From Marinosulfonomonas sp. PRT-SC04 (lineage in GTDB: Bacteria > Pseudomonadota > Alphaproteobacteria > Rhodobacterales > Rhodobacteraceae), in NCBI GenBank assembly GCA_001321835.1, contig JPUR01000248.1, forward strand, positions 1 to 21,568: DNA of 21,568 nucleotides. Direction: 5' to 3'. The notes under the pieces are model-generated. The model worked only from the letters and a program-made list of their open reading frames with translations, was not told the DNA's origin and ran no database searches. This document shows positions 4,794 through 21,568 of this stretch, one piece after another (position 1 is the first letter of the stretch; every line of letters begins with the position of its first letter). A program made the position numbers and the translations under genes.

Positions 4794-7700
4794 AGCGCTG
4801 TCTCCAATGCAATTGCAACCTGATCTTCTGTATTGTTTGCGGTGCTACCCGTGTTTGCAGCCGTGATCTCGGATGTGCTTTGCAACAAATCCAGCCGCGC
4901 ATTCAATGCCCGCAACTCAACAAGAATTTCGGCTTGGCTTCGCTCTGGTGTGTATCCAATATTATTGCCTGCCCGTGATAGAGCACGCCGATAATCAACG
5001 CCGCTGGCAAACTTGGCTTCGGTCACTGACGCCAGCAAAGCACCCGAAAGGGTATTCGCCGCACTGGTCACATTCACAAAGGCTGGCGCAAGCTGGATCA
5101 ATGCAGCGCCCAATTCGGTATCGCCGGTCGCCATCGCCGTATCGACCAACTTACGGTAGGCCGCATTCGTGTCTGGCACAAAGTTGACGCCAAGACCGGC
5201 AAGGCTTTCCGTTAGGCGCGCCGTCGCATTCGCCAGCTTTTCTTTTCCGGTGTAAAATTGATCATAATAAACCACTGAGGATTTAGTGAAGTTTTCGAGA
5301 GACCCGAACAGTTCCGCGAATTTCGCAGCAGCCTCACCACCTGCAAGCGAGATGTTAAACAAGCTGAAATCCAAATCCCGAAAGGCATCGTTCACCGTGA
5401 CCAACGAGGCACTTAATCGCACCAGCGCGTCATATGAACCATCGACATCATCGCCAGAACCAAGAACACGCAAAGCCAAAGCATCGCCAAGACCACTCAT
5501 GGCTTCTTCGATCTTGACCTGCTTTGCAGCGTCATCAAGCCCCTTAAGCGACAGTTTGAATGTGTGGCTAAACCCATCGAAGACATCAGCGCTAACGCCA
5601 AGACTTTCTGCGGCTTGAAGAACACTGCCTTTCACCAAATCCACAGCCTGCGTAAATGGCGCAGAATCCTTTTCTGAGATTTTGGAATAGCTCGTTCTGA
5701 TTTTCTTAGACAGGCCCCAGAAACGTGTCGTCTTGATTTTTTTGTAGCTTTCGAACATGGCCGCTTCCATGTCGATTATGCCGCGAATACCGGAATCAAG
5801 CAGTTTGGTTTTCTTTTTGAAGAACGAGAACACAGCCAACGCAATGCCAATCACAGGAAGGGCCGCGCCAATGCTGGACATGATCCCTGCCCCGCCGCCA
5901 ATGCTGCTGAACAAGCCACCTATCCCGCCACCGGTTCCAAATGTTCCGGCAAGCGTATTTCCAAGCCCGCCGAGCAATCCAGTGCCGCCGCCGAGACTGC
6001 CAAAACCTGCCGCTAGACCGCCACCACCAAATAGTGATGCACCCTTGCCGAAGCCGCCAATAGCCTTGCCGAACAACCCACTAAGCAAGCCCCCACCGCC
6101 AGCACCACCACCCGTTGCGGCAGACGCGGCAGAACCAGCGATGCCGCCTGACCCGCTAAGGCCAAGCGCAATTTTGATCGGGTTTGCGATAGCGGTGCTG
6201 ATCAAATCGCTCAATAATTTCTTAAACGAATCTCGGATGCCGTCCACCATCCCCTTGAAATTCTTGAACCCGCCCGCGACCCAATCACCAAACGCCCCCG
6301 CCACATCACCCACAGCAGAACTTAGCCGACCCGCGAATGCCTTGGCCGCGCCTTCTGCCGCAGTTTTTGTTTCTTTCAACGCCCCAGCGGCCCCACCCTT
6401 GCCGCCCTTGCCGCCCTTGCCACCGGTCAAGGTTTTGGTGAAGGTTTCAGTTTCTTCATTCGCATCGCCAACAGCGTCCCCCATCTCTGCCATTGCCGCG
6501 CTCATTTTTTCAAACGCCGGACTTGATCTGTTGAGATAAGCCCAGCCAGCGTCTGCCATTGTATCAAGGGTTTTAGACGTGGCGTTCGCCTCGTTCGCCA
6601 TATCCCGTAAGCCCGAAACCGCGCCGCCAGTGTAATCTGTATTCATTGCCGCCGAGAACGCACCGGACACAGCCGCGCCCATTCCTGCAGCGTCTGGGAC
6701 CACAACGCGCGCGCCGGAAAAGTCTAGCTTCACAGCCGACATGCCAGCAAGTTCACGAATTGCGTTGAGAGGGATCATCAACTTCTTAACGCCGCTCTCG
6801 ACCATTTCTATCAGGCCATTGATTGCTTGTGCGCCGATCCGCTTGAAGGCCGTGGGCAGCGTCTCAAACCCTGCCACCACCGCATCCTTGACGCCAACGA
6901 ATGTCCCGATAAATTTATTCGCCCAAGTTCCGGACACCCATTCCAGCACATCCGCTAACGCACCAATAAGAGACCCTTTTATCCCCGCAGCATCAGATTT
7001 AATGCGCAACAGCAGGACGGTCCCGAATTCACCAAGCCTCCCAAATATCTCTTGGCCCACTTCCTTCAAAAGAACCAAAGCGGTGCCAAAACCGCCAACC
7101 GCCGTGACAAGACCACTGAACTTTGCAGTCAGATAGCCAGCGCCGACGATAAGCGCGCCGATCCCCGTTGCAACCAGTGCACGTTTCAGAACAGTCAATG
7201 CACCTGCAAAAGTGAAGGTTGCCACCTTCGCAGCAATCAGCGCGCCCACATAACGAACACCAAAAGCGACAACCGCAATATTCATTGACGCGATTATTAC
7301 ATCAATATTACCCACAAGGCCGTCAATCACCCCCCGCAGCATCCCGCCTTCACGCATGGAATCGTTGAAACCTATGGCAAGCGATGTCAGCGCTGGGGCA
7401 AGTGCGCCGCTGATACGATACCCGATGCCCTTCACGGCCATGCCCGTATCATTGAGCGCAGCCCGCAAGCCAGTCAGCGACACTATCGTACTGGTGCTCA
7501 TGATACCGCCAAGCGTTCTCGCATTTTCGCCAAGCCGTGCCATTTCGGCCCCGCCGTTTCGCAACAGGGGGATTAAGGCGGTTGTGTCCGAGGCCATTGC
7601 CTCAAGATAAAACGTCATTTCCTGCTGGCTCAAACCAGCTTTTTCAAGGGATGTCGTATAAAGCTGCAATGCTTGCGGCCCAGACAAATCACGAAACGCA

Positions 7701-18043: not shown

Positions 18044-18718
18044 CTATTCTCGTCGCGGCACCAACAGCCCTGCATCAATCTCAATAGAGCGAACAGCCCC
18101 AAAGAACTGCACCAATGCCCGCGCTGACCCACCGTTAATGTCAACGACCGTTGCCTCCAGACCATCCAGCGGGCCACTGCCAGAACCGTAATCAATCCGC
18201 ACCTCATCACCGACCGCGTACTCATGACCACTGCGCATTCCAGCCTGATTGACTGGCGCAACATGACTGCCCGCCGCCGACTTACGGCGCAACCCGTCAA
18301 TCTCTTCCTGAGTGATCAGCATAGGCCGACCATCGGCCCCAACAACACCGGTCACCAGATCGAGCCGCAACAGATCGCGCCACCGGTCCATGCCCTTTGG
18401 CCAGCCAACAAAGATCCAATTGGCCAACAACGGAAACGAAACCAGATGCTTAGACTTGCTGTAACGATTGATCCGCCGCCACTCTTGACGGATCGGCAGG
18501 AACACATCAAAGCCCGCCCGCTGTAACAACAATTCCGGCACCAATACCCGATGGCCAGTGCCTTTGACCGGACGCTTGCGAGGCACACCATCACGGCCAC
18601 GATATGTTTCATAACTCGCGCCAACCATGACAGACCTACGACCTGTGTTGCGCGGTGGCTTGAACCGAACCGCATACCATTGCAGCGCACAAACATCAGC
18701 TGTGTTGACCATGTTCAT
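18044..18718 (-). CDS. NusG-family transcription antiterminator-like protein (NGN + KOW)
   Basis: The 224-residue product has an NGN-type domain at about 13-145: WYAVRFKP (14-21), GFDVFLPIRQEW (69-80), SFPLLANWIFVGWP (94-107), and VTGVVGADGRPMLIT (122-136), the usual strand order of NusG, RfaH and LoaP. Residues 22-66 are a basic insertion (TYRGRDGVPRKRPVKGTG) absent from short NusG. A KOW-like domain follows at about 166-222 (YAVGDEVRIDYGSG, LEATVVDING, SIEIDAGLLVP). Such specialised NusG paralogues bind RNA polymerase and suppress termination over chosen operons. Its ATG overlaps the preceding gene as ATGA. It is the last early-type gene before the packaging/late genes, a position like that of phage late antiterminators. 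Confidence 0.82.
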   Translation of the reverse strand: MNMVNTADVCALQWYAVRFKPPRNTGRRSVMVGASYETYRGRDGVPRKRPVKGTGHRVLVPELLLQRAGFDVFLPIRQEWRRINRYSKSKHLVSFPLLANWIFVGWPKGMDRWRDLLRLDLVTGVVGADGRPMLITQEEIDGLRRKSAAGSHVAPVNQAGMRSGHEYAVGDEVRIDYGSGSGPLDGLEATVVDINGGSARALVQFFGAVRSIEIDAGLLVPRRE

Positions 18719-19293
18719 ACCGCCCTCTTTTCATCACCACCACGCACAATCGCCTCGCAATATGCCAACCGTTTTTCATATCGGCCCAACCACGAAACAT
18801 CATCATCGGATGCCCTGCTTTTGGCCGCGCGCTCACGGATACGCTGCGCAAGGCTCTGGTTGCGCGTGGCCTCCTCGGCGATATGCCGACCAGCGTTAAA
18901 TGGCGGGCGCTTGTTCTTCTGAAAATATGCCCATGTCTCAACCAACGTCCCAGCCGCCAGACACTTCGGCCCCTCGACCGATTGAAACCAGCTTAATAGA
19001 TTTGGCAATTCCTGAACCGGACACGGCTGCACCAACTCGGCAAACCCACAGATCGTTGCCGCCGATGGCCAGACGTCACGACCACGCCCCTCGCCTTTGC
19101 TTTTCAACATATCGAACATCACAGCCAAATTCTGATCCGACATGTAGGTCAGGCTGTCGATCATGCTGGCCATCTTGGTTTTGAAGACATCAGCAGGCAC
19201 CTTGGCATTGCGCCGAAACCCCAACGCCTCCAGCGGCTCAATCAACAACCGGCGCACCCGCCCTCGCTTGCTTTCTTCAACTTCACTGCCCAT
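18715..19293 (-). CDS. Unknown early protein, possibly replication-linked
   Basis: The 192-residue protein is not recognised. It starts MGSEVEESKRGRVRRLLIEP and contains a helical region (ADVFKTKMASMIDSLTYMSD), GRGRDVWPSAATICGFAELV (about 74-93), and a basic helical C-terminus (EEATRNQSLAQRIRERAAKS). The WPSxxxI element preceded by Arg loosely recalls a motif in lambda-P-type helicase loaders, but this is weak. GAAGGGG lies before the ATG at 19293. It is the first gene after the candidate origin and is coupled to the NusG-like gene by an ATGA overlap. Confidence 0.6.
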   Translation of the reverse strand: MGSEVEESKRGRVRRLLIEPLEALGFRRNAKVPADVFKTKMASMIDSLTYMSDQNLAVMFDMLKSKGEGRGRDVWPSAATICGFAELVQPCPVQELPNLLSWFQSVEGPKCLAAGTLVETWAYFQKNKRPPFNAGRHIAEEATRNQSLAQRIRERAAKSRASDDDVSWLGRYEKRLAYCEAIVRGGDEKRAV

Positions 19294-19326
19294 TTTCTCG
19301 CCCCTTCTTTCCCCAGCAATTCAAAC

Positions 19327-19335
19327 TTATCCACA
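19327..19335 (+). promoter_or_regulatory. Perfect DnaA box TTATCCACA
   Basis: The 9-mer TTATCCACA matches the strong DnaA-box consensus exactly. It lies in the non-coding gap between the two replication-region genes, about 30 bp from an AT-rich tract. Confidence 0.7.
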
Positions 19336-19468
19336 GGCACCCGCTGGTTGTGGTGCGATCTGTCAGTTTATTTTCTTTTTTTTTATTTTTATTTCTGTTC
19401 TTTTCCTTTCAGCGGCGACAGAACTGACGAAAAAACCGGAACAAAACCGAAAGATTCAGGAATGTTCC

Positions 19469-19508
19469 GTAAATTTCCGTAACAGTTCTGTAAATTTCCG
19501 TAACAGTT
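19469..19508. repeat. Two 19-bp direct repeats, iteron-like
   Basis: GTAAATTTCCGTAACAGTT occurs at 19469-19487 and again at 19490-19508, identical, with a spacing of 21 bp (two helical turns). TTCTGTAA (19486-19493) and TTACAGAA (19507-19514) add an 8-bp inverted pair. Such phasing fits binding of an initiator to one face of the DNA. Confidence 0.75.
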
Positions 19509-19526
19509 ACAGAATGAAACAGAATG

Positions 19527-20123
19527 TCAGACCGCCAAACTGAGTGCGTCCAGCCCGTCCCTGACCACATTTTCTGTCCGATTTTGTTCCGGTCTGTTTT
19601 TCAGCAACCATTCATCCAGCCGCTCTATGAAGCCCTCGTTGTTCATCATCTGCTTTGCGCCGATCCGCTCGATCTTTTCGCGCAAATCACTGAAACGCTT
19701 GCGTTGCCGTCCGGCCTCGCGCCGCACTGAACTGGCAGCCTTAAAACCTATAGCCTTGATCACCATTTCGGTGACCACAGCGTGCGCCAACCGCACCTCA
19801 CCCGTGTCGCAAACCACCTCGGACCAATTGTATAACGGCGATATTTTGCGCTCACACGCCGCCTTCCAGCGCTCGATATCGATGCCCAGATACTTGGCCA
19901 GCAACAGATCATCACAGGGCAACGTGCCAACCGGTGACTGATCCTGCGCTATGAAAAACAGATCAAACCCGTAGGCTCGAACCTCTGGCTCAGCCAGCAT
20001 CCTGAACGTGCTGTTTAGCCACCGGCGCTGGTGAAACTCCACATAGAAATGATTCTCCAACCGCTGATCTGATCTGATCGGGTATTCCGGCATTCCTGCC
20101 ACATCAACTACACTCAATCTCAT
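19527..20123 (-). CDS. Replication protein with DUF1376-like N-terminal domain
   Basis: The 198-residue product has, at about 24-85, NHFYVEFHQRRWLNSTFRML, then EVRAYGFDLFFIAQDQSPVG and LPCDDLLLAKYLG. This matches the DUF1376 pattern: F-Y-x-x-D/E-x-x-x-W, x-R-x-x-x-L, a winged-helix style fold, G-x-L-P-x-D-x-x-x-L-A-x-x-L-G. It is common in phage replication/initiator proteins that bind an origin within or next to their gene. The C-terminus is basic and helical (VRREAGRQRKRFSDLREKI). The repeats of the candidate origin begin right after its stop. It starts in an ATGA overlap with the gene before. Confidence 0.65.
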   Translation of the reverse strand: MRLSVVDVAGMPEYPIRSDQRLENHFYVEFHQRRWLNSTFRMLAEPEVRAYGFDLFFIAQDQSPVGTLPCDDLLLAKYLGIDIERWKAACERKISPLYNWSEVVCDTGEVRLAHAVVTEMVIKAIGFKAASSVRREAGRQRKRFSDLREKIERIGAKQMMNNEGFIERLDEWLLKNRPEQNRTENVVRDGLDALSLAV

Positions 20124-20569
20124 ATTTCCACCGCCTTTCTGGAGGCCAAAACACGCCTTGCGTCAGCCATCAAACCCGTAATTATGAAGCTGCCATCGGC
20201 ATCATCATCGTCAAATCCAGACAGGATTTTACGCGCCAAATCTTCCATGGTTTTCGATGGCACCGCAGCGATTTTCCGCTTTTTAATCCAGAGGTCGTCG
20301 CATAACGGGTTGGTCACGAGGGCGTCAAATTCCGCCTCGGCCTGCAAACCGCTTTCCCCGTTAACATCAGCTACATTTGCCAAGTGAGACCCCTCTTCAA
20401 GGGCGGCGCTCCATTGACCGTCTATGCGCTCCCAGTCGCGATACAGGCGCTGGATCTCTGTTTCAGGTGCCGCAATCGCAGGGGTGGCGACAAGGGGCGC
20501 TACGGCGGTCCCTGCGATAAATTTACGGCGTGAGATGTGGGTATGGTTTGATTTTTGGTTCGCTGACAT
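20120..20569 (-). CDS. Unknown protein with twin-arginine-like signal
   Basis: The 149-residue product starts MSANQKSNHTHISRRKFIAG, then a hydrophobic stretch ending APAIAAPE-like at about residue 35 (TPAIAAPE). S-R-R-K-F-I is a Tat motif and AIA-A is a plausible signal-peptidase site, so export in folded form is possible. The rest contains IQRLYRDWERIDGQWSAALE and an acidic stretch (SGFDDDDADGSF). Function unknown; proteins with this leader occur in early regions of related phages, where the leader may not be used. GGAG lies 7 nt before the ATG at 20569. The start is the first gene of the leftward operon, behind a structured leader. Confidence 0.65.
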   Translation of the reverse strand: MSANQKSNHTHISRRKFIAGTAVAPLVATPAIAAPETEIQRLYRDWERIDGQWSAALEEGSHLANVADVNGESGLQAEAEFDALVTNPLCDDLWIKKRKIAAVPSKTMEDLARKILSGFDDDDADGSFIITGLMADARRVLASRKAVEI

Positions 20570-20584: not shown

Positions 20585-20646
20585 ATTGGATTGCACCCAA
20601 ATCCCCCCCGTCAAAAGGGTGTCCGGGCAAACAACAGGTTGACGGA

Positions 20647-20663
20647 CCGACCGTAGGAGTCGG
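20647..20663 (-). promoter_or_regulatory. Leader hairpin with anti-Shine-Dalgarno loop
   Basis: The minus-strand RNA forms CCGAC/GUCGG with the loop UCCUACG. The loop is a perfect 7-nt complement to the Shine-Dalgarno region at 20578-20584; counting one stem base, the match is 8 nt. Just 5' of it is a second hairpin (20665-20678) with an AGACC/GGUCU stem and a GCAA tetraloop of the GNRA class. Confidence 0.5.
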
Positions 20664-20696
20664 CAGACCTTGCGGTCTCCCATTGCGCCCGAACAG

Positions 20697-20724
20697 AAAA
20701 AGCCACGACATACGGCGCGGCTTT
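20697..20724 (-). terminator. Leader terminator/attenuator-like hairpin
   Basis: On the minus-strand RNA AAAGCCGC pairs with GUGGCUUU (8 bp, one G-U wobble) around a 10-nt loop, ending in a run of five U. It lies only a few bases after the predicted leftward start site, so it would end most transcripts unless overcome. Confidence 0.55.
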
Positions 20725-20735
20725 GGGGTGCACCT

Positions 20736-20763
20736 ACTATAGACAGGCCGTCAAACCCGACAA
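20736..20763 (-). promoter_or_regulatory. Candidate leftward early promoter
   Basis: Minus strand: -35 TTGTCG (20758-20763), 16-nt spacer, -10 TATAGT (20736-20741). Transcription would start near 20729, on an 8-bp palindrome GGTGCACC (20727-20734) that could be an operator. It would read the leader and all minus-strand genes. Judged by consensus only. Confidence 0.45.
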
Positions 20764-20843
20764 CAAAGCATTTCCCCTGTTGCAGGTTGACTCTAGCCCG
20801 TCGCGGCGCATTCTTCAAGATATTGATTAATTGGAGATTCGAT

Positions 20844-21464
20844 ATGAGCGACCAAAACATTCGCGATGGACAATTCCACGGTAAAGAAATTGCAGACCGC
20901 CAGACAACCCAACTCATTGGTATGGCCCAAGGCATGATTGCCGATGGCAAGCTTGTTGATGCTGAAATACACTTCTTGCACAAATGGCTCGTAGCCAATG
21001 AAAGTGTTCGCTCAAACCCGCTTATTTCGATCCTTATTGCGCGGATTGATGAAATCTTGGCCGATGGTATCATTGACGAAGACGAACGAGAAAGCCTGCG
21101 CGAAACTATGACCTCGCTTACCGCGGCAGATTTTGAGCTTGGCGAGATAGCGAAATCTACCGACTTGCCTGTATGTGATCCGGCGCCAGAAATCCACTTT
21201 GACAACACCCGATTTTGCTTCACCGGCACATTCACATTTGGCAAACGTAAGGACTGCGAGGGAGCCGTGGCAGAATTGGGGGCAAATGCTGGCAGCCTCA
21301 CAAAGAAAACTGATTTCTTAGTGATTGGCGAGTACGCAACAGCATCTTGGAAGCAGGAGGCCTTCGGTAGGAAGATAGAGAAAGCCGTCGAAATGCGCGA
21401 AAACGGTGATCCCATTTTCATCATAACCGAGGCGCACTGGCGAAACGCGGTATCGCAAGCGTAG
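20844..21464 (+). CDS. BRCT-domain protein with helical N-terminal (TerB-like) region
   Basis: The 206-residue product is the only plus-strand gene. Residues about 23-95 form acidic helices in two similar halves (GMAQGMIADGKLVDAEIHFL and ARIDEILADGIIDEDERESL), recalling TerB-type folds. Residues about 117-205 are a BRCT domain of the DNA-ligase/RFC1 kind (RFCFTGTF at 123-130, AVAELGANAGSLTKKTDFLV at 141-160, ending AHWRNAV). BRCT domains bind DNA ends or phosphoproteins in DNA repair. The ATG at 20844 has GGAG about 8 nt upstream; an upstream in-frame start at 20670 lies in the leader region and is rejected. It may be a moron, a phage repair accessory or the first flanking host gene. Confidence 0.75.
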   Translation: MSDQNIRDGQFHGKEIADRQTTQLIGMAQGMIADGKLVDAEIHFLHKWLVANESVRSNPLISILIARIDEILADGIIDEDERESLRETMTSLTAADFELGEIAKSTDLPVCDPAPEIHFDNTRFCFTGTFTFGKRKDCEGAVAELGANAGSLTKKTDFLVIGEYATASWKQEAFGRKIEKAVEMRENGDPIFIITEAHWRNAVSQA

Positions 21465-21568
21465 ATAATTGCCATGCTAGTATTGGCTTGCGGGCAGCAA
21501 ACTAAAGTCACACCCCCCCCCCATATTCCGACCCTTTTTTGATCACGAACACGGGCTTCATGGCCTTC
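21465..21568. other. Right-end stretch with a C10 homopolymer
   Basis: No complete gene is visible. On the minus strand a frame running in from the right edge ends KPVFVIKKGSEYGGGV at TGA (21508-21510); this could be the last codons of a neighbouring gene, but it is too short to identify. A run of ten C (21513-21522) lies inside it, so its frame is sensitive to sequencing or slippage errors. Confidence 0.3.

Follow-up and report, generated by a model that had tools for sequence, protein, structure and literature searches.

A conserved intergenic element with helically phased repeats and a DnaA box as the candidate replication origin of a Marinosulfonomonas prophage

To our knowledge, few replication origins of temperate alphaproteobacterial phages have been mapped. 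The described systems that invite comparison are the replication module of phage lambda and the origins of iteron plasmids that employ DnaA. In the plasmid origins P1 oriR, pSC101 and RK2, the iterons, an AT-rich unwinding element and a DnaA box are combined in one compact origin, served by a Rep-family initiator, with longer iterons than those described below, often several DnaA boxes and no phage loader. Here, we analyze the early region of a prophage on contig JPUR01000248.1 of Marinosulfonomonas sp. PRT-SC04 (the window, that is, the whole stretch of 21,568 nucleotides), where a 233-base gap (19294..19526, not assigned to either strand) separates two minus-strand genes encoding an initiator candidate of 198 amino acids (aa) and a helicase-loader candidate of 192 aa. 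An earlier sequence-only reading considered this gap to be a candidate origin, and our results support that view: the gap is a real conserved element and, judging by its anatomy, very probably the theta-type replication origin of the prophage.

In an order like that of the phage lambda module (O, ori-lambda, P), the gene of the initiator candidate is followed by that of the loader candidate within one early operon, with the loader candidate showing a weak likeness to lambda P. In the lambda origin (J02459) as in the gap, the iterons give way, on the same strand, to a purine/A-rich tract; the AT-rich tract of lambda is described as the part of the origin that unwinds (PMC7466680). Unlike the four annotated 18-bp iterons of lambda, which lie inside the O gene, the array in the window begins after the stop codon of the initiator gene, and consists of short units, one helix turn apart, located between genes, with a DnaA box past the tract. 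The initiator candidate, moreover, has the DUF1376 fold. With the plasmid origins, the gap shares the compact combination of iterons, AT-rich element and DnaA box (the latter found in about two thirds of the relatives), whereas this family typically has one box, in one orientation. The element could be viewed as a lambda-type module with a plasmid-like hybrid origin.

In the open-access literature searched, we found no description of such an origin. The closest account deals with Paracoccus phages (Decewicz et al. 2019, PMC6536676), where pben1_p32 is named as a replication protein, no Psul1 replication protein of known similarity is reported, and p21 is suggested for this role; the homologue of the initiator that we find in Psul1 is p22. 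Replication proteins are given in that paper with no origin, and the words 'DnaA' and 'iteron' are absent from its main text. The nonamer TTATCCACA is listed as one of three motifs used for finding oriC in Rhodobacteraceae (PMC6699656). For alphaproteobacterial phages, one study (PMC9437464) reports that predicted DnaA sites show no positional asymmetry over the genomes; because the distribution considered there is that over whole genomes, this result neither supports nor excludes a single conserved box.

On the coding strand, the gap reads, in order, from the stop codon of the 198-aa gene through an inverted unit TTCTGTAA, four TTACRGAA units, a stretch ending in CGCTGAAAGG, a purine/A-rich tract, the DnaA box TGTGGATAA and a GCTGGGGAAAG word to the start codon of the 192-aa gene. 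An exact-word search of the window places the repeat units on the plus strand at 19465..19472 and 19475..19482 (both TTCCGTAA), 19486..19493 (TTCTGTAA), 19496..19503 (TTCCGTAA, or TTACGGAA on the coding strand) and 19507..19514 (TTACAGAA, of the TTACRGAA type), that is, four TTCYGTAA units and one inverted unit. The window has no exact copy beyond these five 8-bp units, and their start-to-start spacing, counted on the coding strand from the initiator stop, is 11, 10, 11 and 10 bp. The two identical 19-bp direct repeats reported previously are present (19469-19487 and 19490-19508, offset by 21 bp; TRF period 21, score 83) but are better read as the same array of 8-bp units, at 10-11 bp spacing, taken in 21-bp steps. 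The purine/A-rich tract, a candidate unwinding element delineated from the sequence and family counts, occupies 19366..19412 on the minus strand and opens with CTGAAAGG (19412-19405). The AT-rich tract (about 19366-19410) and the inverted-repeat arms of the sequence-only reading are both present in the gap, and so is its perfect DnaA box, assigned by exact match and conservation to 19327..19335 on the minus strand (TTATCCACA on the plus strand), which is the sole exact match on either strand of the window. Between the box and the loader gene lies GCTGGGGAAAG (19307..19317, minus strand), the window's form of a conserved GCTGAGAAA word that precedes the loader start in 37 of the 109 syntenic gaps defined below.

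Conservation of this arrangement was assessed across loci gathered by initiator-alignment scans, 80 of them from 89 relatives in a set of genome contigs (genome_contigs) and 80 from 126 in a set of viral contigs (viral_contigs), which add up to 163 matched loci with two phage records and the window. Removal of 6 loci at contig ends left 157, and a redundancy filter (more than 50% shared 11-mers in the 300 nt after the initiator stop) reduced these to 118 non-redundant loci. The loader was found in 111 of the 118 loci (7 are without it), and the 109 loci with a gap of at most 350 nt were used for all counts on syntenic gaps, distances, trees and motifs. Going by their titles, we take the genome-contig relatives to be Rhodobacterales, except for a few, such as L054 (titled Alteromonadaceae, a metagenome-assembled genome) and L022 and L026 (titled only Alphaproteobacteria). 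Inspection by eye covered the gaps of the first 60 of the 118 loci, plus the ends of the 34 box-less gaps.

Helical phasing is a property of the whole family. Within the first 160 nt after the initiator stop, identical 6-mers recur across the 118 loci at lags of 10 and 11 (z 57 and 46) and of 20-22 (z 32, 64 and 25), as well as at 31-33, 42 and 52; lag 10 accounts for 335 pairs, where a stretch of the same length inside the initiator gene gives 16. Lags of 5, 6, 12 and 15 are raised too (z 12-19), probably owing to the purine tract. In 66 of the 118 loci, the 300 nt after the initiator stop contain the exact box TGTGGATAA, always on the gene strand and never on the opposite one, and none of 939 equally sized control windows has it on either strand. 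The box is the commonest 9-mer of the 109 gaps, occurring in 64 where 0.03 are expected from shuffles, and the quality of the match is bimodal: the best box has 0 mismatches in 64 gaps, 1 in 11, 2 in 4, 3 in 21 and 4 in 9, so that 75 gaps are within one mismatch and 30 have at least three. In those 75 gaps, the box lies at a median of 40 nt ahead of the loader start (10th to 75th percentile 37-44.5, 90th percentile 60.6). A purine tract of at least 30 nt runs along the gene strand in 71 of the 109 gaps (its pyrimidine equivalent in 1 of 109), compared with none in equal stretches of the initiator gene from 55 of these loci, and in all 51 gaps with both elements the tract starts upstream of the box. 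The distance between box and tract has a median of 34 nt (quartiles 29 and 37.5, 90th percentile 132). The word CTGAAAGGA is present in 47 of the 109 gaps. The location of the proposed origin downstream of the initiator gene holds true across the family and is best put as lying between the initiator gene and the helicase-loader candidate.

The element can also be recovered from DNA alone. The pattern of phased TTAC..G units, used by itself, retrieved two viral contigs, IMGVR_UViG_2518645504_000007 and IMGVR_UViG_3300037321_000083, the latter with the same initiator-gap-loader layout, although it had been missed by the first protein search. The former is the closest viral contig that contains the region: its two flanking genes are 77% and 97% identical to those of the window and its gap has diverged, yet the gap retains the CGCTGA word, the box and the purine tract, the spacing of its units is still 10/11 bp, and all four exact TTACRGAA words in its 19.6 kb fall in the gap. 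A second DNA-only search of viral contigs, for CTGAAAGGANNNGA followed after 45-75 nt by TGTGGATAA, yielded 23 records, 22 of them flanked by homologues of the initiator (upstream) and of the loader (downstream); because 21 of these 22 had already been listed by the protein search, the result shows the specificity of the pattern rather than new members. A further family member, IMGVR_UViG_2645727927_000003, lies outside the 80 of 126 viral loci, and in the one exception among the 23 records, IMGVR_UViG_3300020045_011319 (5626-5720), tract and box match with neither gene within 1 kb, possibly a different module or a chance match. The Paracoccus phages vB_PbeS_Pben1 and vB_PsuS_Psul1 have the same layout and the same TGTGGATAA, with different repeat words (GACAGTC-like in Psul1 and CTGWAAT-like in Pben1) that, judged by eye, are phased alike. 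In the phage collection searched, no phage was near-identical to the window by DNA, and G001, the virus record that shares most words with it (85%), lacks any match to 19100-20200.

The open reading frames that cross the gap, 19163-19543 on the plus strand and 19409-19570 on the minus strand, were considered as coding readings and set aside on the evidence of the relatives, because their gaps carry phased units of differing sequence, and because the frame of the box with respect to the loader varies (each of the three occurs, in 32, 18 and 25 of 75 gaps), and in 50 of the 75 an in-frame stop separates the two.

The repeats track the initiator and not the loader. Over the 109 loci, iteron distance correlates with initiator distance (Spearman 0.619) and not with loader distance (-0.002); the partial correlations are 0.620 and -0.039, respectively, and the observed values were reached in 0 of 500 permutations for the initiator and 468 of 500 for the loader. 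Iteron classes, which were set after the inspection of the gaps and from the iteron sequence only, require 9 changes on the initiator tree and 44 on the loader tree, against means of 55.4 and 55.5 in shuffles; as 0 of 300 shuffles reach the count of either tree, the loader tree also keeps a little signal. The link between gap and initiator varies with position: it is 0.46 over the first 50 nt and 0.54 over the following 50, and drops to 0.04 over the final 40 nt. Physical linkage could add to this correlation. Along the initiator itself, the link peaks at residues 113-142 (rho 0.60), just past the wing of the winged helix, and is still 0.54 in the last window, 162-191; given this value and the concentration of class-informative residues in the C-terminal half (105 loci, after exclusion of 4 of the iteron class 'other'), the correlations do not single out one DNA-reading part of the protein. 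The box occurs in every iteron class. On the initiator tree, its presence requires 20 changes (shuffled mean 29.3, with none of 300 shuffles as low), and on the loader tree 26 (22 of 300 shuffles are as low).

The initiator candidate (19527..20123, minus strand) was assigned from its open reading frame, its predicted fold, its similarity to DUF1376 folds and the PHROG matches within its family. The AlphaFold2 model (pLDDT 95.1) is a winged helix (helices 46-60, 72-79 and 83-90, strands 100-104 and 110-114) followed by a long helix (115-154) and a helical C-terminus. The sequence-only reading was right that the gap starts at the stop codon of this gene; its description of the gene as DUF1376-like is supported by the fold, shared with DUF1376 phage proteins in BFVD (best E 5.6e-8, TMq 0.57), but not by the sequence score, 14.4 bits against the Pfam cut-off of 30.1 for DUF1376 (PF07120). 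Among 61 members of the initiator family, 3 match PF07120 at E 0.01 or better (best E 0.0028), and 39 match phrog_22470, a 'replication protein', but the 198-aa protein of the window itself does not. The helicase-loader candidate (18715..19293, minus strand) is an all-helical protein whose best structural match is lambda P, a weak likeness; scans against Pfam and PHROG yielded no family worth using for it. Searches of solved structures produced nothing meaningful by sequence for either protein, and no Foldseek match in the PDB at E 0.001 for either model.

The contacts between proteins and DNA, the strand opening and the function of the loader that we infer from this anatomy would combine as follows. 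The winged-helix initiator, produced from the gene just upstream, would bind the units on one face of the helix and wrap the DNA into a nucleoprotein complex, as lambda O does on its iterons; host DnaA would bind the one box, which lies beyond the purine/A-rich tract; the tract, flanked by the initiator array and the DnaA box, would then open, and the 192-aa protein would bring DnaB, in the manner of lambda P, so that forks start. Three observations qualify this scheme or its DnaA step. With one mismatch allowed, the window contains 6 matches to the box against 3.7 expected, which makes a single box on its own weak evidence; a box with at most one mismatch is missing from 34 of the 109 syntenic gaps; and the GC-skew switch anticipated at the gap is not seen over the 109 loci, where the skew keeps one sign throughout the region, with a mere bump in the 0 and +1 kb bins, in a test that is confounded because all genes of the operon are on one strand. 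The joint initiation with host DnaA that had been suggested is supported by the exact box, of one orientation and far above the controls, with the qualification that part of the family is without it. Since related origins have lost the box, or never had it, DnaA appears to be an accessory and optional partner across the family.

The same absence of the box from a third of the gaps, along with its position some 40 nt before the loader start, would also fit an origin in which the box acts in transcription, with DnaA regulating either the expression of the loader or the activation of the origin by transcription, but having no part in strand opening. We regard this as unlikely, yet the most serious of the competing readings: no sigma-70-like promoter match is found in the gap (the hosts may use other promoters), and the distance from box to purine tract is fairly narrow by its median, if not by its 90th percentile, as expected of a role in unwinding. 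The lack of a promoter match in the gap also speaks against the proposal that the array is an operator, bound either by a repressor or by the 198-aa protein in regulating its own gene, with the origin elsewhere. Phased dyads are typical of operators as well, as a matter of general knowledge, but this array lies downstream of the gene that it would autoregulate, inside a one-way run of genes, and the purine tract and the DnaA box would be left unexplained, so that we hold this version to be improbable.

Still less probable is an RNA leader that would control either the loader gene or antitermination by the NusG-like protein. The repeat part of the gap does fold better than shuffles (z -2.3 for the whole gap of the window, mean z -2.88 over 55 of the 109 gaps), but the antisense strand folds about equally (mean z -2.70), no excess of folding is seen in the 110 nt that adjoin the loader (mean z -0.31, with -0.24 for the coding control), and no Rfam family matches the gap. 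The folding signal hence reflects the DNA dyads, and an RNA element is rejected. That an AT-rich spacer acquired a stray box and repeats by chance would be in keeping with the unremarkable number of near-boxes in the window alone, but is refuted by the conservation over 118 loci and 109 syntenic gaps, and we give it a negligible probability.

As a probable theta-type origin, the gap provides a recognizable candidate for a large prophage family and would tie an unannotated pair of genes to replication. A broader scenario, which we put forward tentatively and rate at a little under an even chance, is that Rhodobacterales prophages share a modular origin, in which the initiator and its iterons are exchanged as one cassette, loaders are swapped freely, and the single oriented DnaA box has been gained and lost many times, such that the phages switch between DnaA-assisted and DnaA-independent replication. 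In that case, some phages would be tied to the host cell cycle and others freed from it. Matched natural origins with and without the box would make the contribution of host DnaA to phage replication directly testable, and iterons and initiators that vary in step constitute a data set on how initiators read DNA.

Several other features of the early region deserve mention. The gene that follows the loader candidate in the operon (18044..18718, minus strand) encodes a NusG-type antiterminator (PF02357, E 1.1e-8; phrog_6386, E 2.6e-14). At the head of the minus-strand early genes lies a C4 antisense RNA (RF01695, 52.5 bits, cut-off 45; 20615-20700, minus strand), and just upstream of it are two sub-threshold matches on the minus strand, to the a1/b1 target (30.2 bits, cut-off 46.7) and to an isrK-like RNA (27.2 bits, cut-off 50), with the coordinates 20740-20796 and 20696-20783. 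We take the C4 RNA and these matches to represent an RNA immunity switch of the P1/Gifsy type, in a prophage whose host is apparently alphaproteobacterial; pairing of the C4 RNA to the region downstream amounts to 8-base matches at most, and the nearest relative has other genes at this position. Directly after the C4 RNA comes a 149-aa protein (20120-20569, minus strand) with a Tat-signal-like N-terminus (PF10518, E 0.023, sub-threshold), an unusual feature among early phage genes. Oriented against the operon, 20847-21464 (plus strand) encodes a protein that strongly matches phrog_3989 (E 2.3e-59) and carries a BRCT domain (PF00533) at its C-terminus. Finally, the end of the window (21513-21568) equals, in reverse, about the first 55 bases of a related contig, L002, and the two differ beyond that point; the contig of the window and L002 may both end in sequence that is repeated in one assembly.
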